Shown: positions 1 through 23,109 of the stretch, piece after piece
How the letters are laid out: every line of letters begins with the position of its first letter
How positions within the stretch are numbered: the first letter of the stretch is position 1
DNA from: Nanobdellota archaeon
GTDB taxonomy: Archaea > Nanobdellota > Nanobdellia > Parvarchaeales > Parvarchaeaceae
Direction: 5' to 3'
Length of the DNA stretch: 41,701 nucleotides
Assembly: GCA_021836125.1 (NCBI GenBank)
Contig: JAKBJF010000006.1
Location: forward strand, 1-41,701
The notes under the pieces: model-generated
Databases searched by the model: none
The model's input: the letters and a program-made list of their open reading frames with translations, nothing else
Told to the model about the DNA's origin: nothing
Translations under genes and position numbers: made by a program

Positions 1-1382
1 TAATAATGCTGCGGAAACCATCAGATGTATACAAAAGTACTACGGATTTAAGAAATTATTTCGCTAAGGACGCTTCTATATATTTCGTTTCAGAAGCGCT
101 TCAAAAATTCGTTGAAACTGACAGCAAATCTGATTTACTATTGGAACTAAAAATCCTAGATGTCCCGAAACGCATAAAATCGGGGGAAAGGTTGTCGGAC
201 GAAGAAAAGAAAAGCTTAAGGGAAAAAATTCCCGGCGGTTCTGGTTATAGCTATGATGTAGAAGAATTAGATTATGAATATGCAGGGTTAAAGTCGTTCT
301 TGTCTAGCATAGACGCAAATAAGTCATTTATGCTATGGAGATTACTTCTTAAAAGTATCGCCAACAAAACGGAATCCGACGCGAAAGATTTCTTCTCCGG
401 CAGTTATTCTTGGTTTTATTATAACGTTCACAAAACGCAATTCTATGCAAGTTTTGTAAAACTTCTTAGAAATGAAAGATGGCTTGCGAATAAAGATGGT
501 AATTTAAAGAGACCGGCCGACATGGCCTTTGAAGACTTATCGGATGAATACATTAAGGACGGAAATAATATGAGGATATTGTTTGAGGTTCTCGGCATAT
601 CAATGGCAAAAAATGACATAATCGAACAGTTACCTCAAGAAGAAAGAAAAAAACTTGAACTTACGGAAGGATACAGCAGTGCGCAACTTAGCGAAATATT
701 AAAAAACGCGGAGACTCTGACTAATCAAAATGAAATTAAGAATGAAAATGTAGAAACTTGGGCACCTAAAAACGCCCCCAACGAAATAAAAACTCCAATT
801 GAAATTATTGACCCAATCAAAATAAAACCTCCTGAGTTAGAGGGCCAAAGCAGCACATTAAATATAACGCCTGCTGAAGCACAAAGTAAAGAGGAAAATA
901 AAAGCGCAGAAGGGGAGCCCGGAATTTTAAATCTGACTGACAAGAAGGACATCGGAGATTGGGGAGAAAAGAAAGTCTATGAGGCCCTTAAAGAGAAATA
1001 CAAAGAGTCTGGCAGCATTAAAGAAACTGATTTTGGTTTTAGAGTTAGTGATGGCGTGGAGGTTGTTTGGCTAAATAAAAATGGAAACGTTGGAAAAGGT
1101 TGCGATTTTATAATAAAAAAAGGCGAAATAGAACTTGAGTACATTGAAGTAAAAACAACTAAGAGCGACGAACAAGAATTAATAGAAATTACTGGTGTTC
1201 AATGGGAGTTTGCTAGAAAGCTTTATGATAATAAAAAAGGTGAAAAATATTCTGTTTATGTTGTTACAAAAGCTGGTGAACTGGATGCTAGAATTATAAA
1301 GCTACAAAACCCGATTAGGCTTTGGCATGAAGGTAAACTTTATGCGCATCCAATAAATTTCAAGCTCCCCCCTCTTGTGTAA
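1..1382 (+). CDS. NOV_C/DUF3883 domain protein, 5'-partial (sacsin/NO VEIN-like)
   Basis: The visible part is at least 458 residues and the reading frame is open to the window edge, so the ATG at 6 may be internal. The C-terminal 150 residues look like the NOV_C (DUF3883) domain: a WGEKKVYEALKE helix near residue 316, GCDFII with Asp367, and IEVKTT with Glu381 and Lys383. This is a D...ExK arrangement typical of PD-(D/E)XK nuclease folds. The middle segment (RNERWLANKDG, then ILFEVLGI) resembles the region before this domain in large sacsin/NO VEIN-type GHKL ATPases, so an ATPase N-terminus is probably upstream. Residues 240-310 are a polar, Asn/Glu/Pro-rich linker. It lies directly upstream of vsr-dcm and a GHKL-nuclease gene, which points to a role in defence or modification. 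The domain call is fairly secure; the function is inferred. Confidence 0.75.
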   Translation, partial: IMLRKPSDVYKSTTDLRNYFAKDASIYFVSEALQKFVETDSKSDLLLELKILDVPKRIKSGERLSDEEKKSLREKIPGGSGYSYDVEELDYEYAGLKSFLSSIDANKSFMLWRLLLKSIANKTESDAKDFFSGSYSWFYYNVHKTQFYASFVKLLRNERWLANKDGNLKRPADMAFEDLSDEYIKDGNNMRILFEVLGISMAKNDIIEQLPQEERKKLELTEGYSSAQLSEILKNAETLTNQNEIKNENVETWAPKNAPNEIKTPIEIIDPIKIKPPELEGQSSTLNITPAEAQSKEENKSAEGEPGILNLTDKKDIGDWGEKKVYEALKEKYKESGSIKETDFGFRVSDGVEVVWLNKNGNVGKGCDFIIKKGEIELEYIEVKTTKSDEQELIEITGVQWEFARKLYDNKKGEKYSVYVVTKAGELDARIIKLQNPIRLWHEGKLYAHPINFKLPPLV

Positions 1383-1396
1383 ACAAATATATAAAC

Positions 1397-1412
1397 GTGC
1401 CTAGAAAGGCAC
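1397..1412 (+). terminator. 6-bp perfect stem-loop after the DUF3883 gene
   Basis: GTGCCT and AGGCAC form a perfect 6-bp stem with an AGAA loop, 14 bases after the stop codon at 1382 and before the vsr promoter region. No long T tract follows. It could be a transcript 3' end or processing structure; the terminator role is a guess. Confidence 0.35.
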
Positions 1413-1469
1413 TAAAGCCAGTTACCCATGCAAGGAAACTTATTTAACGTCCCCACCACTTAATTAAGT

Positions 1470-1901
1470 ATGACAGCAATAAAGTTCAGAGCTCCAACAA
1501 AATCGGTCTCTTTAAGAATGAGGCAAGTTAAAAGCAGTGGGACGAGCATAGAAAAACGAGCAGAACAGTTAATAAAGGAATTGGATTTAGACTACGAATT
1601 TCAGCCAAAATTATATGGCCATCCAGATTTTAGAATAGTTGGCACTAAAATATTGATATTTTGTGACGGTTCTTTTTGGCATGGCAGGAATAAATCCGAT
1701 TTAAATGGCGAATCGTTTGGCAGAAACGCAAAATTCTGGAAAGAGAAAATAAATTACAATTTAAAACGCGACTCAAAAATAAACCGCACGTTAAAAAAAG
1801 AGGGCTGGATCATTCTTAGATTCTGGGACACTGAAATAAACAAAAAACAAGAATACGTAAAATCAAAAATTATTGAAGAGGTTTTAGATGCAAGAAAATA
1901 G
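1470..1901 (+). CDS. vsr: Vsr-like very short patch repair endonuclease
   Basis: The 143-residue protein has the layout of Vsr family nucleases, which nick 5' of T:G mismatches produced by deamination of 5-methylcytosine. Visible features are an N-terminal RMRQVKSSGTSIEKRA segment, GHPDF with the likely catalytic Asp53, FCDGSFWHG (residues 64-72) matching the family FWHG motif, FWKEKI..N..RD (89-101), and GWIILRFWDTEI (112-123). Length is normal for Vsr. Its last 14 bases overlap the start of the cytosine methyltransferase gene, so the two are probably translationally coupled. This is the classic Vsr-Dcm partnership. An AT-rich box (cttatttaac) about 25 bp upstream suggests a promoter and leaderless start at 1470. 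In defence islands a Vsr homologue can also serve as the restriction nuclease, so repair versus restriction is open. Confidence 0.88.
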   Translation: MTAIKFRAPTKSVSLRMRQVKSSGTSIEKRAEQLIKELDLDYEFQPKLYGHPDFRIVGTKILIFCDGSFWHGRNKSDLNGESFGRNAKFWKEKINYNLKRDSKINRTLKKEGWIILRFWDTEINKKQEYVKSKIIEEVLDARK

Positions 1902-2973
1902 TGAGTTAACTGCTATAGACCTGTTTTCTGGAGCAGGAGGTCTTACTTTGGGTCTAAAAATGGCTGGTTTTAAAGTCGTCGCTGCGATTGAAGTAGAACC
2001 AAAAATAGCAAAAACTTATGCAAGTAATCATCCAGAGGCGGCTTTGTTAATTGAGGACATAAGAAAAGTAACCGCAAAGGAAATTTACAAAAAGACAGGC
2101 GTAAAGTCTATAGATTTAATAGCAGGATGTCCGCCTTGCCAAGGATTCTCTAAATTAACCGAAAAATACCATAGACAAGACGAGAGAAACGGTTTAGTTA
2201 TGGAAATGGGTAGACTGATAAAAGAGATACTGCCAAAAGCGATAATGATGGAAAACGTGCCGGGCTTGGCTAAACAAGATAATCCAATCTTCAATGAATT
2301 TCTGAATCTTATTCAAGCTATCGGATATAAAGTCAATTATTCAGTCCTCCAGCTCGCCGATTTCGGGATACCGCAGTCTAGAAGACGCTTGGTTCTGCTC
2401 GCGGGGCGACATTTTGAGATTAAACTCCCGAAAAGAGAGTACTCCCAAAAAGGCGACAAAAAGAAAGGCCTTAAACCGTGGCTTACCCTTAAAGATGCAT
2501 TGTCAGGATTTGATTCTAAGGATACACGAACTTTTGAAGAGACATTACCTTATGGTGGCCCCGCGAAATTTGATTGGAAGGTGGTTAGTAACATTAGTAA
2601 AATAAGTAGAAAACGCTTGGCCACTCTTAAGTCCGGACAAACATGCAGAGATCTGCCATTAAAATTACAGTTAGAATGCCAATCTCAGCCAAATGGTTTC
2701 AAAAACGTTTACGGAAAACTTAGTTGGAATAAGACGCCGCCAACCATAACGAGTGGCTTCAAAACGCCGTCCATGGGCAGATTCGGGCATCCTTCTAAAA
2801 CAAGAACAATTTCAGTTAGAGAGGCGGCACTTATACAAACGTTTCCAAAAGATTACAGATTCGAAACTACCTCCATAGGCACGGTGGCCGAAATGATTGG
2901 GAATGCACTGCCACCAAAATTCGCGAAAATCGTTAGTAAAACCTGTTTTGAAGCATTATTAAGCAAATCTTAA
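1888..2973 (+). CDS. dcm: DNA (cytosine-5-)-methyltransferase
   Basis: This 361-residue enzyme transfers a methyl group from S-adenosylmethionine to C5 of cytosine in a specific DNA sequence. Canonical motifs are in order: motif I DLFSGAGGLT (11-20), motif IV GCPPCQGF with catalytic Cys84, motif VI MENVPGL (Glu122), motif VIII QSRRR (163-167), a target-recognition region around 175-300, and motif X GNALPP near residue 340. It overlaps vsr by 14 bases and precedes the GHKL-nuclease gene. Together they look like a restriction-modification cassette in which this enzyme marks self DNA. The recognition sequence cannot be read from the protein. Motifs are intact, so it is probably active. Confidence 0.95.
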   Translation: MQENSELTAIDLFSGAGGLTLGLKMAGFKVVAAIEVEPKIAKTYASNHPEAALLIEDIRKVTAKEIYKKTGVKSIDLIAGCPPCQGFSKLTEKYHRQDERNGLVMEMGRLIKEILPKAIMMENVPGLAKQDNPIFNEFLNLIQAIGYKVNYSVLQLADFGIPQSRRRLVLLAGRHFEIKLPKREYSQKGDKKKGLKPWLTLKDALSGFDSKDTRTFEETLPYGGPAKFDWKVVSNISKISRKRLATLKSGQTCRDLPLKLQLECQSQPNGFKNVYGKLSWNKTPPTITSGFKTPSMGRFGHPSKTRTISVREAALIQTFPKDYRFETTSIGTVAEMIGNALPPKFAKIVSKTCFEALLSKS

Positions 2974-2986
2974 AAGATATATATTA
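2974..2986 (+). promoter_or_regulatory. Box A-like promoter for the GHKL-nuclease gene
   Basis: The AT-only stretch agatatata starts right after the dcm stop codon and is centred about 28 bp before the ATG at 3007. This is the spacing expected for an archaeal TATA box serving a leaderless mRNA. It suggests the effector gene can be transcribed separately from the methyltransferase. Confidence 0.45.
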
Positions 2987-3006
2987 GTGCATAATAAGTT
3001 GAGCCT

Positions 3007-5001
3007 ATGACCGACAACAAAAAATATACAATGATAGTAGATAAGATGATCGTAAATAAACTAGGATTTAAGTTATACGATAAAGTTTCTGCCGTAGTCT
3101 CAGAACTAATAGCAAATGCTTACGATGCAGATGCAGAACTCGTTACGATAAATTTACCAATTGGCAAGGTTCTAGGCTCTAACGATATTATAGAAGTTAT
3201 AGACGATGGCGTAGGCATGACTCCAGACGAGATAAATAATTTTTATTTGCCGGTTGGAGCAGAAAGGAGGCTAGATAAAAATCGCGGAGACCTTTCAATT
3301 GAAAAAAACAGACCAGTCATGGGCCGTAAAGGAATAGGAAAGCTGTCAGCGTTTGGCGTTTGTAAAACAATCGAAATAAAATCTTCCGGCGGGGAGAAAA
3401 CTAGCAAAGGTTACAGAGTTGCTCATCTAAAAATAGAGTATGATGAAATAATTGGAGATAAGAATAAGAATTTAGATTATCATCCAACTGTTCTTAGAGA
3501 TGATGAAACTTGGGCAGAAAGAAGAGGAACTACGATAACATTGAAAGACTTTCTTAAGAAAAGAGTACCAGACGCAGAAACTTTGGAAAGGCAACTAGCA
3601 TCTAGATTTTCGATTATACTGAATAAAGGGGATAAATTTGACGTAAAGGTTGTTGATACAAAGGAAATTCCAGAAGAAGAGTTCTACGTTAAAAACATAA
3701 AAATTGATGTGATGGACGGAACAAAGATAAGCGTTGACGATAGACCAATTAAACTGGAAAATGGAGAGGAACTAAAAGTTAATGGGTGGGCTGCCATGGC
3801 AAAAAGCCCGCACAAAAATCCAGAGACCGCGGGTGTAAGAATATATGTTAGAGGCAAGTTTGCTGCTACAACCAGAGATTTTAATCAACCTGCTGGATTC
3901 CAAGGAGAATTCGTTGCGAGATCTTATTTAGTTGGAGAAATACATGCGGATTGGTTAGATAAAACGGAAGATCTAATACAAACACATAGACAAGATATAA
4001 TCTGGGAATCTGAATACGGAGAGGCTTTTGCGGCTTGGGGCAGGGAATTAATAAAAGAAGTGGCAAAACGAGGGCGAGAACCGAGAAGAGAAAGAGTTCG
4101 GGATGCATTTTTAGCAGCGGCACAATTAGAAAAACGCGCGAGTGTTCGTTTCAATAACTCTGATTTAGAGAAAGAAGCAATAGAGGTCGGCAAACAACTT
4201 AGTGGCTTTGCATCAGAGGACGAGTTAGAAGACGAGGAATATGTAAAAGGTCTTTCAGAAATAATACTTATGCTTACTCCACATAAACTTCTATTTGATG
4301 CATTTAACAAGATAAAAGACATGGTAAAATCCGGGAGCATAAACTCGGCCGAACTAATAAAGTTATTCGAAACAACAAGAATTGCCCAATTAGCTTCATA
4401 TGGACAGATTGTAGAAGAAAAATTAAGTGCAATGGATACGTTCAAGGCGGCAATAAGAAATGATCAAACGACAGAACTAGAGCTTCAAACTATTCTAGAA
4501 TCGGCACCTTGGCTTATAAAACATGATTGGACAGTAATTACAATGAATCGGGCGTTGTCAACGTTTCAAGGCGCCTTTTCTTCATGGTACAAAAAGAATA
4601 CTGAAGAGGACATAATCTTTTTGACCGATGCCACCTCTTTAAATAAGCGACCAGACTTTATTTTCCTTCACGAAGACAATTCTTTAATAATAGTTGAAAT
4701 AAAGCCCCCGAAACGGGTTTTTGATGATTCAGATTGGAGCAGATTAGAAAAATATCATGATTATATAGAAAAGTTCTTTAAAGTGAATTCAAACTTTTTA
4801 AAGGATTTTCCGAATGGGTTTAAAACCATATTAATAAGAGATAATGAAAAAGTAAGCTCAACAGTAGAGAAGGCAATGAAGAATTTAAAAGAGCATAACA
4901 AGCTAGAAACATATACTTGGGAAGAGTTACTAAGAGAAACGGAAATAGCACATAAAGATTTTCTTCGCGCAAGAGATGAAATGGGATCTAAAACTAAATG
5001 A
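3007..5001 (+). CDS. GHKL (MORC/Hsp90-like) ATPase fused to Shedu-like PD-(D/E)XK nuclease
   Basis: The 664-residue protein has two recognisable parts. The N-terminus is a GHKL ATPase: the Mg-binding Asn box SELIANAYDAD (Asn37), the DDGVGM motif (66-71), and the glycine lid GRKGIGKL (106-113), as in MORC, MutL and Hsp90. Residues 120-340 fit the associated transducer-like region. Residues 380-480 are helical and charged. The C-terminus from about 480 (ESAPWLIK) resembles the Shedu/DUF4263 nuclease fold, with RPDF (Asp550), IVEIKPP (Glu564, Lys566) and a downstream WSRLEKYHDYIEKF helix. The likely role is an ATP-gated DNA-cleaving effector in a restriction system guarded by the upstream cytosine methyltransferase. 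GHKL ATPases of this kind near DNA methylases are known. The nuclease assignment rests on motifs only. Confidence 0.85.
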   Translation: MTDNKKYTMIVDKMIVNKLGFKLYDKVSAVVSELIANAYDADAELVTINLPIGKVLGSNDIIEVIDDGVGMTPDEINNFYLPVGAERRLDKNRGDLSIEKNRPVMGRKGIGKLSAFGVCKTIEIKSSGGEKTSKGYRVAHLKIEYDEIIGDKNKNLDYHPTVLRDDETWAERRGTTITLKDFLKKRVPDAETLERQLASRFSIILNKGDKFDVKVVDTKEIPEEEFYVKNIKIDVMDGTKISVDDRPIKLENGEELKVNGWAAMAKSPHKNPETAGVRIYVRGKFAATTRDFNQPAGFQGEFVARSYLVGEIHADWLDKTEDLIQTHRQDIIWESEYGEAFAAWGRELIKEVAKRGREPRRERVRDAFLAAAQLEKRASVRFNNSDLEKEAIEVGKQLSGFASEDELEDEEYVKGLSEIILMLTPHKLLFDAFNKIKDMVKSGSINSAELIKLFETTRIAQLASYGQIVEEKLSAMDTFKAAIRNDQTTELELQTILESAPWLIKHDWTVITMNRALSTFQGAFSSWYKKNTEEDIIFLTDATSLNKRPDFIFLHEDNSLIIVEIKPPKRVFDDSDWSRLEKYHDYIEKFFKVNSNFLKDFPNGFKTILIRDNEKVSSTVEKAMKNLKEHNKLETYTWEELLRETEIAHKDFLRARDEMGSKTK

Positions 5002-6835: not shown

Positions 6836-7741
6836 CTATTTTTCCTTAAGCATTTCTGAACAGCATTTTGCCACCAGTGGTGATATGTCTACGATATCTG
6901 CCTTGTCATTTGGTACGCTATTAGACCCTATTATCTTTTCTACACCAGCGGCTTTCAGCTTATCAAACGCACCATTCAACATCAGAAGATGCGTTGCTAT
7001 AACAAAAATCCTTTTTGCACCTAGCTTCTTCAATTCTTCTGCAGCCAGGCGTATGGTCTCACCGGTGCTTATTATGTCGTCCACGATTATTATGTCATGA
7101 CCAGTAACGTCGGTCTCCGGATCTTTTGTTATTTTGACTTCTCCAGTCTGTTTATTTCTTTCCTTTCCGAGAAATGACGAGCTTGCCCCCAGCACTTTTG
7201 CTAGTTCGTCCGCTCTGCTTATACCCCCATTATCTGGTGAGATAACTATCGGCTTAACAAGGTCCTGAGGCAGAGATTTTGCCAGCAACGAAGAAGGATA
7301 TATTATTTTGGTCTTGCCGTTAAAGACCTTCAATGATTCCGGCCTATGCGGCTCCGCAACTACAAGTCCATCGGCTTTCAATCCGCCAAGTATTTTTAAA
7401 ATCGTTTCTATGCTTACGGCTTCTCCAGGCGTGAATTCCTTATTCTGCCTTGAATACGCGAGATAAGGCACGACTAGTATAGTCTTTCGCGCCTTAAGCC
7501 TCTGCATCAGATCTAAAATTAGAAATAACTGAATCAGTTTCTCGTCTTGAGGAGGCTGTGTTGATTGTACGAGTATGACATTCTTTCCAGCTATCTGCGG
7601 AGGCAATTTTATATAAGATTCTCCATCTGGAAGCTGTCTATAGTCTATAGCAAAAAAATCCAGATCGAGTGTCTCTGCGACAACTTCTCCTATACCGTTT
7701 GAGGCCGGTCCGCCAACAACTACGGTATCGCGTTCCTTCAT
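6836..7741 (-). CDS. prs: Ribose-phosphate pyrophosphokinase (PRPP synthetase)
   Basis: The 301-residue enzyme makes PRPP from ribose 5-phosphate and ATP. It shows family landmarks: a PDGESYIKLP strand, VQSTQPPQDEKLIQLFLILD, PYLAYSRQNKEF with the conserved Arg/Gln region, AEPHRPESLKVF, SPDNGG, the flexible-loop KERNKQTGEV carrying the catalytic Lys and Arg, and the ribose-phosphate binding IIIVDDIISTGET. Length and lack of an allosteric extension fit the archaeal class. It is the last gene of a minus-strand run pncA-nadE-prs (37 bp after nadE). PRPP is the co-substrate of the divergent nicotinate phosphoribosyltransferase, so the operon couples PRPP supply to NAD salvage. Confidence 0.96.
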   Translation of the reverse strand: MKERDTVVVGGPASNGIGEVVAETLDLDFFAIDYRQLPDGESYIKLPPQIAGKNVILVQSTQPPQDEKLIQLFLILDLMQRLKARKTILVVPYLAYSRQNKEFTPGEAVSIETILKILGGLKADGLVVAEPHRPESLKVFNGKTKIIYPSSLLAKSLPQDLVKPIVISPDNGGISRADELAKVLGASSSFLGKERNKQTGEVKITKDPETDVTGHDIIIVDDIISTGETIRLAAEELKKLGAKRIFVIATHLLMLNGAFDKLKAAGVEKIIGSNSVPNDKADIVDISPLVAKCCSEMLKEK

Positions 7742-7778
7742 ACTTTTAACAACGTTTTCCGTAAATTAAATCGTTTCC

Positions 7779-8618
7779 TTATGTAAGGTCCACACATCTT
7801 GGAGAAGGAGGTATGGCGTTCTTATGCGCATTTTTATTAATCATAAATTTTATTCTTTCAATCAGTTCTTTCTCCACTTTTAACTTTTCTGCCAATTTCG
7901 CAGGCGTAAATTTGGATTTTTTATTGTTAAGGCAAGATAAGACCATGTCCAGCGTAGCGTAATCGACATTTAATTCGTTCTCGGCGGTGTGTCCTGCCCA
8001 AAGCCGGGGCGAAGGCGGTTTTTCCGCTATTTCCTTGAACACTGGAAGATTATCCTTTTCAGCTATGTGCATAAGAAGCCCGCGTACCTGGGTCTTGTAA
8101 AGATATTCCGGCACGTTTATATCAACGCCCCCGTCTCCGTATTTTGTAAAATAACCGAGTATGTTTTCGCTTCTGTCATCTGTTCCAACGACCAGGGATC
8201 CTGCCTTATTTGCTTCCTTATACAACAATACCATACGTAGCCTTGCCTTTATGTTTGCGTAGGCTATCTTGTTGTCGGGTTTGCTTAGATCCGCATCCAT
8301 ATCATAGACTTGTTTAATGAGTGAAGTTATGTTTATGGTCTTCTTCCGCATTCCGAGTGACGATATCGTATTTTCCGCGTGTTCTACATCTTCTTTGGGA
8401 GTAATGTTGTCTTCAGGGAGCATAAGTCCAAGAACGTTCTGTGCACCTATTGCCTTGGACGTTATATAAGCAGTCAGTGCGGAATCGCTGCCTCCGGACA
8501 TCCCTATTACCGCCGTCTTCACTCCTGATTTGGAAAAGTATTCCTTTACCCAGTTTATTCCGTAGAAAAGTGATTTATCCCAATTAAGCTTGAGTTCTTC
8601 TGGAACTGAAAATAACAT
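7779..8618 (-). CDS. nadE: NH3-dependent NAD+ synthetase
   Basis: The 279-residue protein is a single N-type ATP pyrophosphatase domain that amidates nicotinate adenine dinucleotide to NAD+. The PP-loop SGGSDS is at 41-46, followed by the AMP/deamido-NAD binding region GTDDRSENILGYFTKYGDGGVD and the C-terminal KPPSPRLWAGHTAENEL. There is no glutaminase (nitrilase) domain, so ammonia is probably the nitrogen donor, as in many archaea. It starts 6 bp after the pncA stop, so the two are one transcription unit, with prs following. Assignment is firm. Confidence 0.96.
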   Translation of the reverse strand: MLFSVPEELKLNWDKSLFYGINWVKEYFSKSGVKTAVIGMSGGSDSALTAYITSKAIGAQNVLGLMLPEDNITPKEDVEHAENTISSLGMRKKTINITSLIKQVYDMDADLSKPDNKIAYANIKARLRMVLLYKEANKAGSLVVGTDDRSENILGYFTKYGDGGVDINVPEYLYKTQVRGLLMHIAEKDNLPVFKEIAEKPPSPRLWAGHTAENELNVDYATLDMVLSCLNNKKSKFTPAKLAEKLKVEKELIERIKFMINKNAHKNAIPPSPRCVDLT

Positions 8619-8624
8619 AAACGC

Positions 8625-9266
8625 CTACTGGACTTTAGTCGAGTCCTGTAGTTCCTTTTTCGCTTCTTCTAAACTTAGGATCTTTGCGCCGTAAAGAAAT
8701 TCAAGATTCGACAAACCTTTCTGGTTTTCCTCTTCAGTGAATGTATCCACGCCGTTTCTGACTATCTTTATCTTGTAGCCTCTAAAGAAAGCGCCTGCGG
8801 ATGTATGCATATCGCATATGTTGGTGCAAAGGCCCATTATATAGACGGTATTCACGCCCAGCTTCTTCAGAAGTTTATCGAGAGTTGTCTCGAAGAATCC
8901 GCTGTAGGTTCCCTTCTCAACGTTAAAGGCCTTAAATCCCGAAACATCAAATTTGTCATCCAAAGTTTCACCGCGCGAAAACGTCTTCATTCCTTCTGTC
9001 GGAAGCTCGGATATTATCTTGCTACCCTCTGTGCCCTGCATAGCATGGTCGTCCCATCTGCCGCCATTTCTCGTGAGTTCGTAGTCGCTGTGTATATGTG
9101 CATCACTGCAGTATACCAATGGGATATTGTTCGCTATTGCGTATTCTGTGAGTGCTTTTATGTTTCCTACGACATTGTTTGCGCGCTCGCAGTAAGCGCC
9201 CTGATTGTAACCTTTCTTGACGAAGTCATTTAACATATCCACTATCAACAATGCTGGTTTTACCAT
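8625..9266 (-). CDS. pncA: Nicotinamidase (isochorismatase-like hydrolase)
   Basis: The 213-residue protein deamidates nicotinamide to nicotinate. The Asp-Lys-Cys triad is visible: Asp10 in IVDMLNDF, Lys118 in EKGTYSGF, and Cys151 in GLCTNICDMHT. Asp55 and His57 (CSDAHIHS) fit the metal site, and HAMQGTEGSK is a family signature. I chose the ATG at 9266 because a strong AAGGAGG lies 4 bases upstream and the protein then begins with the family's MVKPALLIVD strand. An upstream ATG at 9308 and a further in-frame start at 9359 would add residues foreign to the family. It heads the pncA-nadE-prs operon. Part of the isochorismatase superfamily has other amide substrates, but the neighbours make nicotinamide convincing. 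Confidence 0.93.
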   Translation of the reverse strand: MVKPALLIVDMLNDFVKKGYNQGAYCERANNVVGNIKALTEYAIANNIPLVYCSDAHIHSDYELTRNGGRWDDHAMQGTEGSKIISELPTEGMKTFSRGETLDDKFDVSGFKAFNVEKGTYSGFFETTLDKLLKKLGVNTVYIMGLCTNICDMHTSAGAFFRGYKIKIVRNGVDTFTEEENQKGLSNLEFLYGAKILSLEEAKKELQDSTKVQ

Positions 9267-9270
9267 AACG

Positions 9271-9277
9271 CCTCCTT
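9271..9277 (-). promoter_or_regulatory. Strong Shine-Dalgarno site of pncA
   Basis: AAGGAGG on the minus strand, 4 bases before the ATG at 9266. It stands out because most genes here lack an obvious ribosome binding site. It decides the pncA start. Confidence 0.75.
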
Positions 9278-9332
9278 TTTTTCTTACTAATATTCTTTTG
9301 GCGCGCATATGATTTAATTTAAGCGTTAAAGG

Positions 9333-9394
9333 TATATAAGGCTCAAAAAATTTTAGCAAGGATAAATTTGCCTATTTTGTAAAGTTAATAAAAA
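9333..9394. promoter_or_regulatory. Divergent promoter region of pncA and pncB
   Basis: On the minus strand, CTTATATACC (about 9333-9342) lies about 70 bp before the pncA start, giving a leader that contains the Shine-Dalgarno site. On the plus strand, gttaataaaaa (about 9384-9394) lies about 28 bp before the pncB ATG, as expected for a leaderless transcript. Both halves of the salvage route could be controlled from this 150-bp region. Confidence 0.5.
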
Positions 9395-9416
9395 CCGGCT
9401 GCTTTACTCGTTTATT

Positions 9417-10847
9417 ATGGAAAAAAGAACTCCGAAATCAGATACTTTCGCAGACCGCGATATGGGGCTTTTCATGGATTACTATGAAATGACTGGCGGC
9501 AAAGCAGACTTAGACCACAATAACAAAGATATAATAACAGAAAACTATTTTTTCAGGAAGATGCCGGCGCAGCTCGGAAGTTATGTAATAACTGCTGGCT
9601 TAGAGCAGGTGATAAGATTTATAACTTCTTATAAACTGGAAAAATCCGACGGGAAGTGGCTTAAGCTGACTTCTGGAAAGGACATGAGCGATGGCTTTAT
9701 AAAATATCTTGAGAATTTCAAGTTCAAGGGAGACGTATATGCGGTACCGGAGGGGACTCCTGTCTTTCCGAACGAACCGATAATAAGCATAACCGGACCC
9801 ACTATAGACGTACAGCTGTTCGAAACCTACCTTTTGAACGTAATGAACTTTGAATCTCTTATAGCGACAAAAGCTTCGCGTGTCGTTACTGCGGCGCGTG
9901 GAAGGGGCGTGATGGAATTCGGTTCTAGACGCGCACAGGGAAGAGACGCGGCTATACTTGCCGCAAGGGCAGCGTACATTGGCGGTGCTGTAGGCAGCGC
10001 TCTCGTGCTTGCTGGCAGGGAATTTGGGATACCTTATTTAGGTACTATGCCGCATAAATTTGTACAAGAAAGACCATCTGAAATTCAAGCGTTCAGGGAG
10101 TATGCGCAGTCTTTTCCCTATAACACAGTATTATTGATAGACACTTACAACACTCTGGAAGGCGCTAAAAACGCATGTGTGATAGGAAAAGAGCTCAAGA
10201 AAAAGGGGTATGACCTCAAAGGAGTAAGAATAGACAGCGGCGATCTGCTCGTTCTAAGCAAGAAGGTCAGAGAAATATTGGATTCTGAAGGCATGACAAA
10301 TACCAAGATATTCGCAAGCAGCGATCTTGACGAGTACACGATAGACAAGTTGATAAAGGACGGCGCACCGATAGACAGCTTCGGCGTCGGTACAAGGTTG
10401 GTTACTGGCGCAAATTACAATCCTTTAACGGATAAAGGAAACGTGTCCGTACTCAACGGCGTCTACAAACTGGTCTCCGTAAGCAAAGCTGGAAAAGAGA
10501 TACCAAAAATAAAAATAAGCGATGACAAAGGGAAGACTACTCTGCCTGGGAAGAAACAGGTGTTTCGAAGAACTGAAGGCGAAAAATACATAGAAGATGT
10601 GATATGCCTACAAGACGAGAAACTTGGGAAAGGATGGGCACCGCTTTTAGTACCTATAATGAAAGCAGGGAAAATAGTGTACGACTTTCCAGACTTAAAG
10701 GAGCTAAGAAAATATTGCCTTGAGCAAGTACTCATGTTACCGGAAAGTTGTAAGGACATCCAGACTCCTGCAAATTATCCCGTAGGTATAAGCGAAAAAC
10801 TAAAGAACCTTCAGGAAAAGATGATAACTGAGTTTAGTAGTGTTTAA
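9417..10847 (+). CDS. pncB: Nicotinate phosphoribosyltransferase
   Basis: The 476-residue protein belongs to the NAPRT/NAMPT family and joins nicotinate (or nicotinamide) to PRPP. Recognisable segments are YEMTGGKADLDHNNKDIITENYFFR (ends of an N-terminal helix pair), MEFGSRRAQGRDAA, TMPHKFVQ with the conserved His, GVRIDSGDLLVLSKKVREIL, ASSDLDEYTIDKLI, and SFGVGTRLVTG for phosphate binding. It is divergent from the nicotinamidase-NAD synthetase-PRPP synthetase operon, which makes nicotinate the expected substrate. Length is within the range for archaeal members. Nicotinamide specificity cannot be excluded from sequence alone, but nicotinamidase next door argues against it. Confidence 0.94.
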   Translation: MEKRTPKSDTFADRDMGLFMDYYEMTGGKADLDHNNKDIITENYFFRKMPAQLGSYVITAGLEQVIRFITSYKLEKSDGKWLKLTSGKDMSDGFIKYLENFKFKGDVYAVPEGTPVFPNEPIISITGPTIDVQLFETYLLNVMNFESLIATKASRVVTAARGRGVMEFGSRRAQGRDAAILAARAAYIGGAVGSALVLAGREFGIPYLGTMPHKFVQERPSEIQAFREYAQSFPYNTVLLIDTYNTLEGAKNACVIGKELKKKGYDLKGVRIDSGDLLVLSKKVREILDSEGMTNTKIFASSDLDEYTIDKLIKDGAPIDSFGVGTRLVTGANYNPLTDKGNVSVLNGVYKLVSVSKAGKEIPKIKISDDKGKTTLPGKKQVFRRTEGEKYIEDVICLQDEKLGKGWAPLLVPIMKAGKIVYDFPDLKELRKYCLEQVLMLPESCKDIQTPANYPVGISEKLKNLQEKMITEFSSV

Positions 10848-11062: not shown

Positions 11063-11827
11063 ATGACAATAGAAGACACTTTAGAAGAATCGGATCGCGC
11101 AATTGAAAATTACTTCAAGCGAAAGAAGGCTGAAACAATGGCAAAGTCACCTTACTCTCAGGGTGTTGCTGCCGGATCTAGCGAAACTGGCAACGCAAAC
11201 AAGTTTGAACACCAACTGGAAGGTCAGGAAGGCCAAGGCATTGGAGACATATACGCTAATCAGCAGCTGGCACAATTGAATGTCGCAGCTGAGCAAGGAC
11301 AGGCTAAAGTAGTCGGTGAAGAGGCCACTATAGCTGAGACGCGAAGGCTTTTATTGGAGGAAGAAGCATCCTTTATGCCTCCTTCAAAAATAGGTCCGGA
11401 TAAGAACGGCAATTATATGAGGTTGTTAGATTACAAAGTCACTCGTTTTGTAGTTGGCGGGAAAAAGCTATATCAATTAACTGCAACGTACGGAGAGCGA
11501 TTCTGGCAGTCTATGGAAGACAATAACAATGTAAGACAGATAGATAGAGACTCGCTAATCGACAACATTTATGAACATGCAAGGCGTATAGGTACTTACT
11601 TTGGAAACGGCCTGGAAAGAAACCTTCTTAACCCTGGGATTGTCGGCAAGGATTTGACACTCACAATCTACGGGTCATATAGGAGAGAACTAATAAAAGG
11701 CGCTTTCACTGGTACCCGCGCTGAACTTTATACCTCTGCAGTTTCTGAAGACAGAGTCAAGGGCATACTTGCAGCACTTGAACCAGAAAGCGTATCTGCT
11801 AGAGCAAAGGAACAGGAGGAAGGATAA
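11063..11827 (+). CDS. Hypothetical protein, Gln/Gly-rich N-terminus
   Basis: I do not recognise this 254-residue protein. The first 110 residues are polar and low in hydrophobics, rich in Gln, Gly, Ala and Glu (for example EGQEGQGIGDIYANQQLAQL), and probably flexible or helical. Residues 120-240 look globular, with aromatic positions (YMRLLDYKVTRFVVGGKKLYQL, RFWQSMED, ARRIGTYFGNGLERNL). There is no signal peptide or membrane segment. The next unrecognised gene starts 5 bases after its stop, so they form a pair. A box A-like sequence (agtatttatactact) lies about 35 bp before the ATG. Confidence 0.75.
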   Translation: MTIEDTLEESDRAIENYFKRKKAETMAKSPYSQGVAAGSSETGNANKFEHQLEGQEGQGIGDIYANQQLAQLNVAAEQGQAKVVGEEATIAETRRLLLEEEASFMPPSKIGPDKNGNYMRLLDYKVTRFVVGGKKLYQLTATYGERFWQSMEDNNNVRQIDRDSLIDNIYEHARRIGTYFGNGLERNLLNPGIVGKDLTLTIYGSYRRELIKGAFTGTRAELYTSAVSEDRVKGILAALEPESVSARAKEQEEG

Positions 11828-11832
11828 ATAAT

Positions 11833-12366
11833 ATGGGGAAAAACCAAACTGTGAGTGAGCTCGAGGAAACGCTTCGTAAAGTGCAACAGACTGCCGATGA
11901 ATCTATAAAGGAAGCGCTAGAAAAAGAAATTTATCGAAAGGCAGCATATATATTCAATAGCACCCCAGAATGCGACGGCCTTTCAGCCATAGAACGAAGA
12001 ATAGCCGGCGTCAAGTATCATAGAAGCGACTCTAGTTCTCGAGCACTTATTTTGGAAGATATAAGGATATGTTATCCGGTGGAAAATGGAAGCTTACAAA
12101 TATTTAAAGAAGTAAGAGAAAAAACTGAAATTGGACCATTAACCCGTGAAAAAACACTCTCTAAGTACTTGGTGTATAACGGTACACTGAATGAAATATC
12201 TTGCCATAAGCGGCCGCAAAGTTGCGGTGAAGCGGAAATGAACTGGCATACTGTACTGGATGGGGAATACATGCGTTTGCGTAAAGCAGAAGCTGACAAA
12301 GTCCGTGCTACAGAAATAACGGCCTTGAATCAGAAAATAAATTCTTTGACGCAAAACTTTAGCTAG
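11833..12366 (+). CDS. Hypothetical protein
   Basis: I do not recognise this 177-residue protein. It is highly charged, with helical ends (VSELEETLRKVQQTADESIKE at the start, KAEADKVRATEITALNQKI at the end) and a middle part with several Cys and Tyr residues (ECDG, ICYP, ISCHKRPQSCGE). The Cys/His cluster near residues 120-135 could bind metal or be incidental. No membrane segment. Start ATG is 5 bases after the previous stop, so it is probably co-transcribed and may work with that gene. Confidence 0.7.
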   Translation: MGKNQTVSELEETLRKVQQTADESIKEALEKEIYRKAAYIFNSTPECDGLSAIERRIAGVKYHRSDSSSRALILEDIRICYPVENGSLQIFKEVREKTEIGPLTREKTLSKYLVYNGTLNEISCHKRPQSCGEAEMNWHTVLDGEYMRLRKAEADKVRATEITALNQKINSLTQNFS

Positions 12367-12421
12367 TTATCTAAAAACTGGTGAGTCTGCATGTATGCTA
12401 CGATAAGTTAGGGGATATTGT

Positions 12422-13576
12422 TCAACTGCGTTCGTTTATCCATTTGGCTATTTTTGGCCATGCGATTCTAAGTGTTTTTGAGCCCATGAACAGCCCGATG
12501 TGGCCGCTTTCTACGGTCATCTTTTTTATTTCTTTTTTGTCTGTGCCAAGAACGTTGGCCGCATTTAAAACCTGTTCTGGTGGAGTTATATCGTCGCTTT
12601 TGCCGCCAAGCAAAAACACGGGGCATGAGATGTCATGCAAGTCGAGTCTTCTTCCAAGCCCGATAAAATCTCCCTTGAACAGTTTGTTGTACCTGAATAA
12701 GTCGGACACGGCCTGCAGATAAAATCTACCGGGTAAATCTATTGTATGTTCGTACCATCTTTCGAAGCTTTCAAAACGTTTAATGTACGCATCATCGTCT
12801 ACGTGTAAATAAAGATCGGCGTATTTCTCAAGATAGTGCTTATACGGGTGCATGGATTTAAAACCGTTTAGTATATAATCGCCGCGCATCAGCCCTCCAT
12901 TTATACTAACCAACTCATCAAAGAAATATTGCGGATATGTGTGGGCGAATTTCTTTATTGCGCCCTGTCCTGCGTCGGTATCGATTGGCGCACCTGCCAG
13001 AACCAGCGTATTCACCTTTTTTGGAAACTTGGCAGCGTACATTGCAGATAACCAGCCTCCCTGACACAGCCCTATGAGGTTCACGAATCCGCCAAGTTCG
13101 TTTACTGCCTTGTTTAAATCAGAGAGATAATTGTCTATAGAATAATCCTTCATCACATTAGTGGCGCTCTTCCAGTCGGTTACTGCCAATGTCCCGACGC
13201 GGTCTTTTATCAGTTCAGCGACGAGACTTTGTTCTTTTCTAAGATCTACGATTGTAGAAGTATGGCCCGCATATGGCGCGACTATAAGCGTCGGTATCTG
13301 ACTATGTTCAGCGCCAAACAGCCTTAACTGCATCGTCGGGGTATCTAATATCGTGCGGTTTCTGGTGCTCCAATACGGCTTTTCTTTTTTAAATTCGGTT
13401 TTGTATATTTCATTAAGAAATTTGGTGTTTTTCTTTGTGTAATAGGAATACATGTCTGCCAATAGCCGAAAAAAAGGAGGAATTTGCCACAAATTATCGC
13501 ACCCTAAATAACCGCTGCCTTGCGGAATCGCAGCTATTTTTTTCGCGTTTCTTGTGACTAAATCATCCAACCCCAT
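12422..13576 (-). CDS. PhaC-like alpha/beta hydrolase with Cys nucleophile
   Basis: The protein (384 residues from the ATG at 13576) is an alpha/beta hydrolase resembling polyhydroxyalkanoate synthase or related acyltransferases. The nucleophile elbow is IGLCQGGW with Cys171, the lipase-box variant typical of PhaC, where Cys carries the growing acyl chain. The likely acid is Asp328 or Asp329 (GGKSDDITPP) and the base His359 (ESGHIGLFMG). The N-terminal 80 residues (LWQIPPFFRLLADMYSYY) are also PhaC/DUF3141-like. An in-frame TTG lies 4 codons upstream. No phasin or phaE/phaR partner and no ketothiolase are nearby, so polymer synthesis is unsupported. A depolymerase, esterase or other acyltransferase is possible. 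It follows the NAD-kinase-like gene by about 70 bp. Confidence 0.8.
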   Translation of the reverse strand: MGLDDLVTRNAKKIAAIPQGSGYLGCDNLWQIPPFFRLLADMYSYYTKKNTKFLNEIYKTEFKKEKPYWSTRNRTILDTPTMQLRLFGAEHSQIPTLIVAPYAGHTSTIVDLRKEQSLVAELIKDRVGTLAVTDWKSATNVMKDYSIDNYLSDLNKAVNELGGFVNLIGLCQGGWLSAMYAAKFPKKVNTLVLAGAPIDTDAGQGAIKKFAHTYPQYFFDELVSINGGLMRGDYILNGFKSMHPYKHYLEKYADLYLHVDDDAYIKRFESFERWYEHTIDLPGRFYLQAVSDLFRYNKLFKGDFIGLGRRLDLHDISCPVFLLGGKSDDITPPEQVLNAANVLGTDKKEIKKMTVESGHIGLFMGSKTLRIAWPKIAKWINERS

Positions 13577-13645
13577 AAGTGGATACAATATTATACGTTA
13601 CCTTTGTTTATTAACTTGAGATAAAAATTATCAAATTTTTGTGCG

Positions 13646-14695
13646 TTAGACGGATTTTAGATAATATATCGTGTACCTTGCGTCCCTAAGCGAGGTCTGA
13701 GTTTCTATCACGCCGTGATCCGTTAGGTACTTGAGTGCAGATCTTACAGTTCTTGGAGGAAGAGATGTTACTTTTATGATCTCCTTTTGAGTCATGTTGC
13801 CTTCATATTGGAGCATACGCGCTATAAATTTTGCTGACGGTGGCGCAGTTTTGGAGACTTCAATACTTGTGTTTGTACGAAGTTTTAATTTGTTCATTAT
13901 GTCTTTTGTCAGACCCGGAACGCGCACAAAATACACCGGATAAGCGGAATTAGTGGCCTGAATCTCGCCGGATTTAATATTAACCCTGAAGCGGCCGTCC
14001 AATACTGCCTCGCATCCAGAAGGGCTGGATATCGCTTTTATTTTTACGGTATCATTTTCATCGATCACTATGGGTTTGTTATTATCCAACGAACACAGGG
14101 GTGTCAAAGAAAACGCCTTCGTTTTTGACAGGATTATTGGGCCACCTGCAGATGCGCTGTACGCGGTAGATCCTGTTGGTGTAGTTATTATAAGCCCATC
14201 ACCGGTGTCCTTAAAGAGCAACCTGTCACCAACAAAAAGAGAGTACGAGCAAATTGTAGAACTTGATTTAGACACTATAACTACGTCGTTTAGAACCGGA
14301 AGTTGTTCCTTACCATCTATTATTATTTTCAGTCTTGACAGTTGTTCGCTGAAGAACTCTCCTTTGGATATCTTTTCTATCGCCAGCTCAAACTCTGATA
14401 CATTAACTTCCGAAAGGAAGTTCTTTTTGTCTAAGGACACGCTTAGGACGGGCGTCTGTTTTTCGTATAGTTCCCTGAATATCCTAAGTATATTGAAACT
14501 GTCTCCGATTGCTATTATCATGTCAACGGACATTGATCTTAAAGACGAGACCTTAAGTTTTTTTGTTTTTTTGATTGAGTGTTCTAGCACTACTTCGTTG
14601 CCGGTCTTTCTTAGCGAGTCTATTATCTGGGGTATGCGCTCGTTGACATCCTTATTCTTCGGATCAAAAGCTATACCGAACTTCATCTTCACCAT
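13646..14695 (-). CDS. NAD kinase-like protein fused to a winged-helix domain
   Basis: The 349-residue protein has two domains. Residues 1-275 have the NAD kinase fold: LNDVVI (135-140) and the NAD-binding TPTGSTAYSASAGGPI (172-187) are intact, but the GGDGT/N motif that supplies the catalytic Asp reads GDSFN (64-68) followed by the conserved ILR. Residues 285-349 look like a winged helix-turn-helix (MLQYEGNMTQKEIIKVTSLP, TVRSALKYLTDHGVIE). The start ATG overlaps the previous stop by 7 bases (TTATGGTGA). Alternatives are a functional divergent NAD kinase with a DNA-binding tail, or an NAD(P)-sensing regulator with dead kinase activity. I favour the second but cannot prove it. The NAD salvage genes lie 3-7 kb away. 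Confidence 0.82.
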   Translation of the reverse strand: MVKMKFGIAFDPKNKDVNERIPQIIDSLRKTGNEVVLEHSIKKTKKLKVSSLRSMSVDMIIAIGDSFNILRIFRELYEKQTPVLSVSLDKKNFLSEVNVSEFELAIEKISKGEFFSEQLSRLKIIIDGKEQLPVLNDVVIVSKSSSTICSYSLFVGDRLLFKDTGDGLIITTPTGSTAYSASAGGPIILSKTKAFSLTPLCSLDNNKPIVIDENDTVKIKAISSPSGCEAVLDGRFRVNIKSGEIQATNSAYPVYFVRVPGLTKDIMNKLKLRTNTSIEVSKTAPPSAKFIARMLQYEGNMTQKEIIKVTSLPPRTVRSALKYLTDHGVIETQTSLRDARYTIYYLKSV

Positions 14696-20579: not shown

Positions 20580-22313
20580 TCAATTTATAGGAAGACCGTT
20601 TGCCTCTCTGTATCTTATGTTCAGGTCTATTCTTTCTAGCGCCTGCTTAAGTGGGGATTTAAGATCTTCACGCGTGTTCGCCGGGTCTGCGAAGAAAGTG
20701 GATATCTCTTCCTTCTGGTTTATAGTGTAAGTAGCTGACAATAATTCTACGTATTTGCTTAACAACCCGGTTCCTTCGCCGTATCTGCCCTTCAAAACCT
20801 GCCAGTTCGGCCTAAGCCAGTCCCAAAACACTTTCAAGCCCTCTTGTGTCGCTATAGTGCCCATCGCGACCCTGAATGAGTCCTGTGGCCTTACTTCTGC
20901 TGAATGAGCGAACTCTAATGCTTCCTTTATTATCGCTGGGTCTCTGAAAAAGCCTAAAGCACTGAGAAGCGATAGCTTATCCATATGGTCGCTTGCATTG
21001 TTGTAACATTTTATCAAGCGTTCGTACTCATTGTGGCCGCCGTTCATCGCCACTACCGAGTATATAGTACCTCTTAAATTCGGGTCTATGTTTTGGCTGT
21101 TTACATAAGATTCAAAGATGGAATTTGCTTTGTTTACAGTCGACTTTACTCCTGAACCGCCCAAAGCGCTCACTGCTATATTCCTCTGCGATATGTCTAA
21201 GCTTGTGTCCTCATTTGACTTGGAGAAAGTAAGCTTTTCGAGCAAAGAAAGCCCTATAGAGACCTTAAGACTCTTCATATCCTCGTCTCCGTGATCTTTA
21301 TGCTGGTATAATAACCATCCTAAACTACCTATTATCGAGGATGCAAGTGGATACTCACTCGATTCTGCGAATTTGCTTGCAAAATTCATATATTGGGACA
21401 CTGGTATCCTCGAACCCCTTACAAGGGCAAACATGTCGTTTTCGATTCCCCACGCATCCAAAGCAGATAATTCTCCGGTTTTGATTGCAGCTGCCAATTT
21501 ATCCACCATAAGTTGTTCATAGGACACTCTATAAAATCCGTGCTGCCCGTAATTCAGTTTTATCCAGTCCGCGTCCAAATCCAATACTTTTTCAGCCTCG
21601 TCCATCATAAGAAAGCCCTCTCCTTTATTTGTTTTGTAATGTACTGGGATAGGCCATGTGCCGTTCGCATCTTCAGACCTAAGGAAACGCCGTTGCCTAA
21701 GGACGAATTTGCCGTCTTCGCGCCTGCTTACGTAGACTATCGGGTAGCCGGGTTGCTCTACCCAAGCCTTCATTATTCGTTTAGCGTCTACGCTGTGCCC
21801 TGTTGATGCATCAGATATTGCGTCCCAAAGGTCAGATCTGGTCGCATTGGAATATTTGTGTTTTTTCATATAGTGCCTTAATCCATCTCTAAACGTGTCC
21901 TTACCGACGTAATCTTCTATCATGTGAAGTATGCTTCCGCCTTTCGAATAGCTTATGGCATCGAAAAGGGCATTTGATTCTTCCGCCCTATCAATCTTCA
22001 CTCCGACAGGATGCGTATTGATCAATTCGTCGTAAGAAAAGGCTCTTCCGAACGTAGTTGGAATATAGCTGATGCTACTCTTCCACTTTGGAAATAATGC
22101 GTCTAATGCTTTGTCTGCCATCAATGTCGCAAAGCTCTCATTTAGCCACAAGTCGTCCCACCAAGCCATCGTCACGAGGTTGCCAAACCACTGGTGAGCA
22201 AGCTCATGGGCTGTAACACTTGTTGAATTGTTTATAGCTAACTCTGGCGAATTTTCATTGCAAAGGACATTGCTCTCCCTGAAGGTTATCGCCCCCCCAG
22301 TTTTCCATCGCAC
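20580..22313 (-). CDS. M1 aminopeptidase, C-terminal portion after a frameshift
   Basis: This frame carries the catalytic half of an M1 zinc aminopeptidase (tricorn-interacting factor F2/F3-like), which trims peptides from the N-terminus in the cytosol. HELAHQWFGN with the two zinc His, and LNESFAT with the third ligand Glu 18 residues later, are intact, followed by the M1 linker and an ERAP1-like helical C-terminal domain. The GTG at 22313 is not a natural start. The frame continues the N-terminal half encoded at 22255-23109 once one G of a 7-G run is removed. Together the two make about 842 residues, the normal size of the family. As given the gene is broken; a sequencing error is equally possible. 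Confidence 0.9.
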   Translation of the reverse strand: MRWKTGGAITFRESNVLCNENSPELAINNSTSVTAHELAHQWFGNLVTMAWWDDLWLNESFATLMADKALDALFPKWKSSISYIPTTFGRAFSYDELINTHPVGVKIDRAEESNALFDAISYSKGGSILHMIEDYVGKDTFRDGLRHYMKKHKYSNATRSDLWDAISDASTGHSVDAKRIMKAWVEQPGYPIVYVSRREDGKFVLRQRRFLRSEDANGTWPIPVHYKTNKGEGFLMMDEAEKVLDLDADWIKLNYGQHGFYRVSYEQLMVDKLAAAIKTGELSALDAWGIENDMFALVRGSRIPVSQYMNFASKFAESSEYPLASSIIGSLGWLLYQHKDHGDEDMKSLKVSIGLSLLEKLTFSKSNEDTSLDISQRNIAVSALGGSGVKSTVNKANSIFESYVNSQNIDPNLRGTIYSVVAMNGGHNEYERLIKCYNNASDHMDKLSLLSALGFFRDPAIIKEALEFAHSAEVRPQDSFRVAMGTIATQEGLKVFWDWLRPNWQVLKGRYGEGTGLLSKYVELLSATYTINQKEEISTFFADPANTREDLKSPLKQALERIDLNIRYREANGLPIN

Positions 22314-23109
22314 CCATCGGGAAGTCGGGCACAGCGATGAGGTCTATTTTAGGCAAAGGGAACTTCATACCGAAATAATTTTCAAAGAATCGCAGTACCT
22401 TTCCGGCGTTTTTCCTTGGTAGCACAAGCTCTTCCTTCCTGCCAGGCACCGCTACAACGCTAAGCTTAGTTTTTCCACTTTTTCCTGTTGAGCGTTCGAA
22501 ATGCCCTACGCCTGCATAGAGCAGATATGTAGACATCTTAGGTGTCCTATAGAAGTGCACATCTTTCTTGCCACTTAAGACCCCATCTAGTCTTTTTACT
22601 TTTTTCTGGGGCATGTTTGATATTGTATCCATATCATCGTTAACACGCAGTATAACGTCTAGAGTCGCCTTGAACTCTGGTTCATCAAAACACGGAAAGG
22701 CTGTCCTTGCATCTATCGGCTCGAAGTGCGTAGTCAGAATGTGCTTATTTTCACCACTTGATTTGTACTCGCTTCTGTAGAATCCGTGCATTTTATCATT
22801 GTTTTCCGCGGTAAAGTCTATTTTTAGCTTAACCCTGCCGGAAAATTCATTTGGAAAACCCAGGCTCAACAGTCCATCCGCTTCGTTTAACTTTATATCG
22901 GCGGCTGTATAGCTTTTTCCGTCGACCTCTATCCATGCGTTGTTTATCTGCATTTCAGAGGCGTTAAGCAAAACTGTGTTCGTTGGCTCGTTTACATCTA
23001 AATCTATAGTCTCTTTTCCATAAGTCTTAAATTTCTGAGAATCTGGCTCTAAAAGAAGTTTATATTTACGCGGTACTACTTTGTGTCCAAGCGTCTTATG
23101 GTCCGCCAT
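22255..23109 (-). CDS. M1 aminopeptidase, N-terminal portion before a frameshift
   Basis: This frame begins at a good ATG (MADHKTLGHKVVPRKYKL) and holds the beta-rich N-terminal domain of M1 aminopeptidases: THFEPIDARTAFPCFDEP (the ARxAFPCFDEP signature) and the exopeptidase motif GAMENWG. Directly after GAMENWG the frame leaves the family sequence and stops 13 codons later. The continuing AITFRES and HExxH are in the other frame. So this is the N-terminal third of the gene. Translated alone it would lack zinc ligands and have no peptidase activity. Confidence 0.9.
   Translation of the reverse strand: MADHKTLGHKVVPRKYKLLLEPDSQKFKTYGKETIDLDVNEPTNTVLLNASEMQINNAWIEVDGKSYTAADIKLNEADGLLSLGFPNEFSGRVKLKIDFTAENNDKMHGFYRSEYKSSGENKHILTTHFEPIDARTAFPCFDEPEFKATLDVILRVNDDMDTISNMPQKKVKRLDGVLSGKKDVHFYRTPKMSTYLLYAGVGHFERSTGKSGKTKLSVVAVPGRKEELVLPRKNAGKVLRFFENYFGMKFPLPKIDLIAVPDFPMGAMENWGGDNLQGEQCPLQ
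22292..22298 (-). repeat. G7 homopolymer at the aminopeptidase frameshift
   Basis: Seven C on the plus strand (G7 in the gene). Six would give Asn-Trp-Gly-Ala-Ile-Thr-Phe, the expected M1 sequence after GAMEN. The extra base shifts the frame. This could be a sequencing artefact, a true mutation or slippage-based phase variation. Confidence 0.9.

Follow-up and report, generated by a model that had tools for sequence, protein, structure and literature searches.

Background

The known regulators of NAD biosynthesis, NadR, NiaR and NrtR, are all bacterial, and to our knowledge no NAD regulator is known from archaea. NadR combines NMN adenylyltransferase and ribosylnicotinamide kinase domains, and NiaR is a repressor that responds to nicotinate (PMC6800001, PMC7713382). 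NrtR carries a Nudix fold which senses ADP-ribose and a C-terminal DNA-binding domain, is encoded beside NAD genes, and recognizes a 23-bp palindrome; its catalysis is dispensable or lost in some cases (NrtR of M. smegmatis and S. suis; PMC6800001). In archaea, RbkR consists of a riboflavin kinase and a winged helix and regulates the genes of its own cofactor (title cited in PMC8305020).

We analyzed a stretch of 41,701 nucleotides (the window) from a Nanobdellota archaeon (contig JAKBJF010000006.1). A gene on its minus strand (13646-14695) encodes a protein of 349 amino acids, the fusion, in which an NAD-kinase-like, putatively sensory domain is followed by a C-terminal winged helix. As in NrtR, an enzyme fold of NAD metabolism is joined to a C-terminal DNA-binding domain, the gene lies among NAD genes, and a palindromic operator can be proposed. 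The fusion differs from NrtR in its NAD-kinase fold, its palindrome of about 13 bp and its archaeal-type promoters, and the two share no sequence kinship. By analogy, NrtR is the nearest working analogue of the fusion, which is not an NrtR member as the folds differ. RbkR likewise combines an archaeal cofactor kinase with a winged helix, but its kinase fold is unrelated, its kinase is active and its winged helix is N-terminal. NadR and NiaR also regulate NAD biosynthesis but have no NAD kinase fold. NAD kinase (NadK) itself shares a homologous domain, the same fold and the pocket residues, whereas the fusion lacks the GGDG loop, has a winged helix and is linked to operators. No NAD regulator with an NAD kinase fold, nor any archaeal one, was described in the literature searched, which did not cover most subscription papers.

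Domain composition of the fusion protein

Both NAD kinase models of Pfam exceeded their cut-offs (NAD_kinase_C, E-value 3e-26; the N-domain model NAD_kinase, E-value 5e-10), and the two-domain NAD kinase fold (PF01513/PF20143) was recognized by Pfam and Foldseek over residues 1-275 (13871-14695, minus strand). The winged helix-turn-helix (wHTH) was assigned to residues 285-347 (13655-13843, minus strand) on the basis of Pfam, the family alignment and the AlphaFold2 (AF2) model. Several HTH models matched the C-terminus with E-values of 1e-2 to 1e-4, among them HTH_24 and MarR_2 (both 2e-4, residues ~291-345). These were slightly below the cut-offs in the window copy (21.3 bits against a cut-off of 21.9), while the homologue L139 scored above it (23.5 bits, HTH_24).

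The AF2 model, for which a family alignment of 13 sequences was used as input, reached a pLDDT of 84.5 and a pTM of 0.74. Its best Foldseek matches were NAD kinases (E-value ~1e-25), to which the model adds three C-terminal helices (residues 286-298, 303-310 and 314-326) and a beta wing. Apart from the NAD kinase domains, the Pfam scan of the protein found no NUDIX, NMN adenylyltransferase/RNK, nicotinate-binding or CTP-dependent riboflavin kinase domain.

Loss of the GGDG loop and conservation of the pocket

The GGDGS block of solved NAD kinases aligned to G64-D65-S66-F67-N68 of the fusion (14492-14506, minus strand), so that Ser66 occupies the position of the catalytic Asp. GGDG was absent from every fusion covering the loop and present in 13 of 13 canonical kinases compared. 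Within the genus of the window the motif found instead, G[DNS]S[FS]N[IV]L, shows conservation of its own, with Ser at the catalytic position in every member covering the loop. The fusion of genome G035, from another family (f6), has GGTDL and thus Thr at this position, and those of a further family of the same class, f72, have G[DN][DN][NRK]x, most of them keeping the Asp (GDDNF, GNDRF). Hence the rule across the fusion family is loss of the GGDG loop, while loss of the catalytic Asp holds for the genus. Given the absent GGDG and the conserved genus replacement, the change is neither chance nor decay. Loss of kinase activity is inferred from this, without enzyme data. As the fusion fails the GGDG test, the name "NAD kinase" is unsuitable for it despite the homologous fold.

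The substrate pocket is retained. Alignments placed the NAD pocket signature (N-E/D, DG, GST-A/G-Y) in the fusions, and F93, N136, D/E137, D166-G167, S176-T177, Y179 and D233 were conserved across them. N136-D137 (14285-14290, minus strand) is the counterpart of the ribose-contacting NE/ND pair of NAD kinases, and the nicotinamide/adenine-contacting motif TPTGSTAY is intact at residues 172-179 (14159-14182, minus strand; roles from PMC12052686). In human NAD kinase, N284, E285, D314 and Y327 contact NAD (PMC12052686); they correspond to N136, D/E137, D166 and Y179 of the fusion, all conserved.

A first-pass annotation, made from the sequence alone, had described 13646-14695 (without giving the strand) as an NAD-kinase fold with a C-terminal winged helix, an intact TPTGSTAY and a GGDGT motif changed to GDSFN with loss of the catalytic Asp position. 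These claims held, the last one for the window and the genus only.

Canonical NAD kinase and origin of the fusion

The same annotation had proposed looking for a second, canonical NAD kinase, and one was found in the same genome (G000, contig C12; 256 amino acids, GGDGT). The other fusion-bearing genus genomes also contain one, except where the contig ends, and the kinase job therefore appears to be covered. The fusion is only ~22 % identical to its partner kinase, and the two genes lie on separate contigs in G000, G004 and G012.

In the phylogenetic tree the fusion domains formed a single clade separate from the kinases (support 97/94), which shows that the fusion arose once. The placement of the two G035 proteins is uncertain due to long branches. 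Recent duplication of the neighbouring NAD kinase was also considered as the source of the fusion and was ruled out by the tree. A contig scan for related sequences returned only distant bacterial NAD kinases.

As a separate observation, the canonical kinases of the genus (G000:C12, L002:1546-2316 and orthologues) keep GGDGT and lack the P-T that is usual in PTGSTAY (ANVGSTAY, SAIGSTAY), in contrast to the fusion, which retains it.

NAD gene neighbourhood

The window contains an NAD salvage cluster at 6836-10847. Nicotinate phosphoribosyltransferase (NAPRTase; 9417-10847, plus strand; assigned by Pfam) is divergent from an operon of a nicotinamidase-like isochorismatase (8625-9266, minus strand), NAD synthetase NadE (7779-8618, minus strand; Pfam) and PRPP synthetase (6836-7741, minus strand; Pfam and synteny). 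NAPRTase and nicotinamidase are the proposed targets of the fusion. For PRPP synthetase and NAD kinase, archaeal-type models were the best matches. Along with the small size of the genome and the leaderless promoters of TATA type, this led to the inference of an archaeon with a small genome; a search of the assembly for 16S returned nothing. The listed nicotinamidase ORF (8625-9359) begins at a TTG (9359) and would overlap the proposed operator; the ATG at 9266-9264, after the Shine-Dalgarno sequence AGGAGG, is the likelier start.

Three inserted ORFs (11063-13588) separate NAPRTase from the fusion in the window. In genus relatives the fusion directly abuts NAPRTase in convergent orientation, and NAPRTase is divergent from nicotinamidase, NadE, in some cases PRPP synthase, and NAD kinase. 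The fusion of G035 is syntenic with the same genes (NAPRTase, nicotinamidase, NadE and NAD kinase). In f72, the fusion is divergent from nadA (E-value 8e-118), followed by nadC and, in three genomes, aspartate dehydrogenase; nadA/nadC lie beside the fusion in five of the seven f72 genomes. The strongest indication of an NAD role is the presence of the same protein beside two NAD pathways that are not homologous to each other.

One of the ORFs between NAPRTase and the fusion (12422-13588) encodes an alpha/beta hydrolase similar to class III PHA synthase (PhaC), with a lipase-like G-L-C-Q-G box, and is not at that spot in relatives.

Distribution and co-occurrence with NadE

The two-domain fusion was found in 15 of the 28 genus genomes (some copies being broken or cut by contig ends), in G035 and in seven f72 genomes, and no others were seen in a phylum-wide sample of 371 genomes. 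Most genomes carry it as an intact full-length ORF, with 40-50 % identity among members. A true NadE was present in 16 of the 28 genus genomes; the fusion occurred in 15 of these 16 versus none of the 12 without NadE (Fisher, 4e-7). This value ignores relatedness, and p-values here overstate independence because the genomes are related.

G275 has an intact fusion, yet neither NadE nor an adjacent nadA was found there, and the fusion may possibly serve another role in that genome. Broken copies were observed at L141 (G286), where the wHTH no longer shares the reading frame of the kinase domain and neither NadE nor an adjacent nadA is present, and at L142 (G402) and L046 (G010), where the fusion is truncated. 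G023 (L083; 98 % complete) has the same divergent NAD salvage cluster with no fusion; its intergenic region is very short and lacks an operator, and we regard this genome as a natural negative control. No part of the window's first 20 kb matched the DNA of G155, which is labelled as the same species; this genome is uninformative on gene loss.

Proposed operators

A GGCAAA(A)TTTGCC-like palindrome was found 12-14 bp upstream of a TATA box in both the genus salvage and the f72 de novo settings. In f72, the intergenic region between nadA and the fusion contained the exact palindrome, GGCAAAATTTGCC or GGCAAAAATTGCC, in 7 of 7 genomes. It lies 14 bp ahead of the TATA-like box of the fusion, and a GGCAA half-site about 30 bp from it adjoins the nadA TATA box. 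The NAPRTase-nicotinamidase region of the genus contains two sites. In clade A of the genus these are inverted copies of AYRGGAAAWWWTTGC, one beside each promoter, and in clade B they are GGTAAATATTGC and GGNAAAAATTGCC, with a span of 44-45 bp and 14 bp to the TATA box.

In the window, proposed operator site 2 (GGATAAATTTGCC, 9360-9372) matches the f72 palindrome GGCAAAATTTGCC at 11 of 13 positions. Proposed site 1 (AAGGTATATAAGGC, 9329-9342) is weak alone and was assigned by span comparison; the span from it to the end of site 2 is 44 bp, as in the relatives (44-45 bp). The NAPRTase TATA box was inferred from the sequence as TTAATAAAAA (9385-9394, plus strand), about 28 bp before the ATG of a leaderless transcript. 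There are no binding data for either site.

A single-site position weight matrix (PWM) from clade A gave only p 0.11 on the window, and a two-site test derived from clade B and a PWM trained on f72 were used instead. The joint score of the two window sites was matched by 0-1 of 1000 dinucleotide shuffles. With the f72-only PWM, the NAPRTase promoters of all 15 fusion-bearing genomes (4.4 to 13.4) scored above those of all 16 fusion-free genomes (at most 3.8), and the window promoter had the highest score (13.4). Thus operators accompany the fusion gene, although they differ from subclade to subclade.

A wider regulon was considered and rejected. Further exact matches to RGGAAAWWWTTGC and GGCAAAWWTTGCC in the genomes scanned were inside ORFs, apart from one or two intergenic ones in G275 that did not recur, and the regulon therefore looks local. 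No motif was seen near the promoter of the fusion itself in the genus, so that autoregulation is suggested only in f72.

Proposed function

We consider it likely that the fusion has given up kinase activity, senses NAD(P) and controls the two divergent NAD promoters. This rests on the linkage to different pathways in two families, the single-origin phylogeny, the co-occurrence with NadE and the conserved palindrome; contact with DNA, the ligand and kinase inactivity are inferred, and there are no binding or expression data. Against it stand the weak site 1 of the window, G275 without NadE or adjacent nadA, the G023 cluster without fusion, and the operator differences between subclades.

In the proposed mechanism, an NAD kinase would have become a transcription factor by losing the GGDG phosphate loop, keeping the NAD(P) pocket and gaining a C-terminal winged helix. 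NAD kinases are dimers of dimers, and a dimer of the fusion is predicted to bind GGCAAA-A-TTTGCC-type sites via its winged helices, adjacent to the BRE/TATA elements. Its targets would be, in the window, the NAPRTase promoter and the divergent one of nicotinamidase-NadE-PRPP synthase, and, in f72, that of nadA-nadC-aspartate dehydrogenase. NAD(H) or NADP(H) in the old substrate pocket may act as the effector and alter DNA binding, and a full NAD pool would lower NAD synthesis. Archaeal activators commonly have their sites just upstream of BRE/TATA. Because the proposed sites have this position, a ligand-free activator is preferred to a ligand-bound repressor by a narrow margin only, the direction being inferred from site position.

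The first-pass annotation had suggested a transcription factor sensing NAD or NADP, with the divergent promoter region at 9267-9416 as its target. The former is supported by linkage, phylogeny, co-occurrence and operators, with ligand, wHTH-operator binding and kinase loss inferred; the latter is supported by the conserved palindrome in exactly that region, without binding data. It had also placed the NAD salvage operon close to the gene and not adjacent, which is true only in this window, as the fusion abuts NAPRTase in relatives.

A bolder reading, which we favour with limited confidence, is that of a new archaeal transcription factor family: an NAD kinase devoid of kinase activity would directly sense the NAD(H)/NADP(H) pool and control whichever pathway the lineage has, de novo synthesis (nadA-nadC) or salvage (NAPRTase-nicotinamidase-NadE-NadK). 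Should this hold, archaea would have their first known NAD regulator, and the NAD kinase fold its first known use as a transcriptional sensor. Tiny-genome archaea would then possess a circuit dedicated to NAD control, and one more enzyme would have been recruited as a sensor of its own pathway. The fusion would also be a small, testable protein with an effector expected to reflect NAD(P) levels. Annotation from domains alone would label the fusion as an NAD kinase and mislead metabolic reconstructions.

Alternative explanations

The alternative that survives best is a regulator of the NAD genes with another ligand in the old pocket, such as ATP/ADP, nicotinate, NaMN or another adenine nucleotide. 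It remains possible, as NAD kinase pockets also accept adenosine moieties and the known NAD regulators differ in their ligands (NadR responds to NAD, NiaR to nicotinic acid and NrtR to ADP-ribose; PMC6800001). However, the residues contacting both ribose and nicotinamide in NAD kinases are conserved.

A bifunctional enzyme-regulator like RbkR or NadR, still phosphorylating NAD with a remodelled loop, was judged unlikely. Most f72 members have Asp at the catalytic position, and RbkR is an archaeal precedent (cited in PMC8305020). However, no loop-covering member retains the GG.G glycines, the catalytic Asp is Ser in all such genus members and Thr in G035, and a canonical kinase is already present.

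Even less support was found for a pseudo-kinase partner whose binding would modulate the canonical NAD kinase, with the winged helix as a protein-contact module. The gene is close to the NAD kinase gene in most genus genomes and in G035, but the low identity to the partner kinase and the separate contigs in the three genomes named above speak against it, and the fusion-linked operators are left unexplained. A functionless, decaying NAD kinase duplicate is practically excluded: the copies in G286, G402 and G010 are broken, but the ORFs are mostly intact and full-length, the new motif and the wHTH are conserved, and purifying selection on the wHTH and loop is already evident.

Compared with these alternatives, the kinase-dead NAD(P)-sensing regulator remains our preferred reading.

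Other loci in the window

The region 6-5001 is likely a type II restriction-modification locus, containing a NOV_C/TmtA-like protein, a Vsr nicking endonuclease, a C5 cytosine methylase and an HATPase-type REase-like protein. At 20580-23109, an M1 aminopeptidase is divided between two ORFs that overlap in different frames, and its Peptidase_M1 domain is split between the two, possibly due to a frameshift, a split gene or an assembly error.
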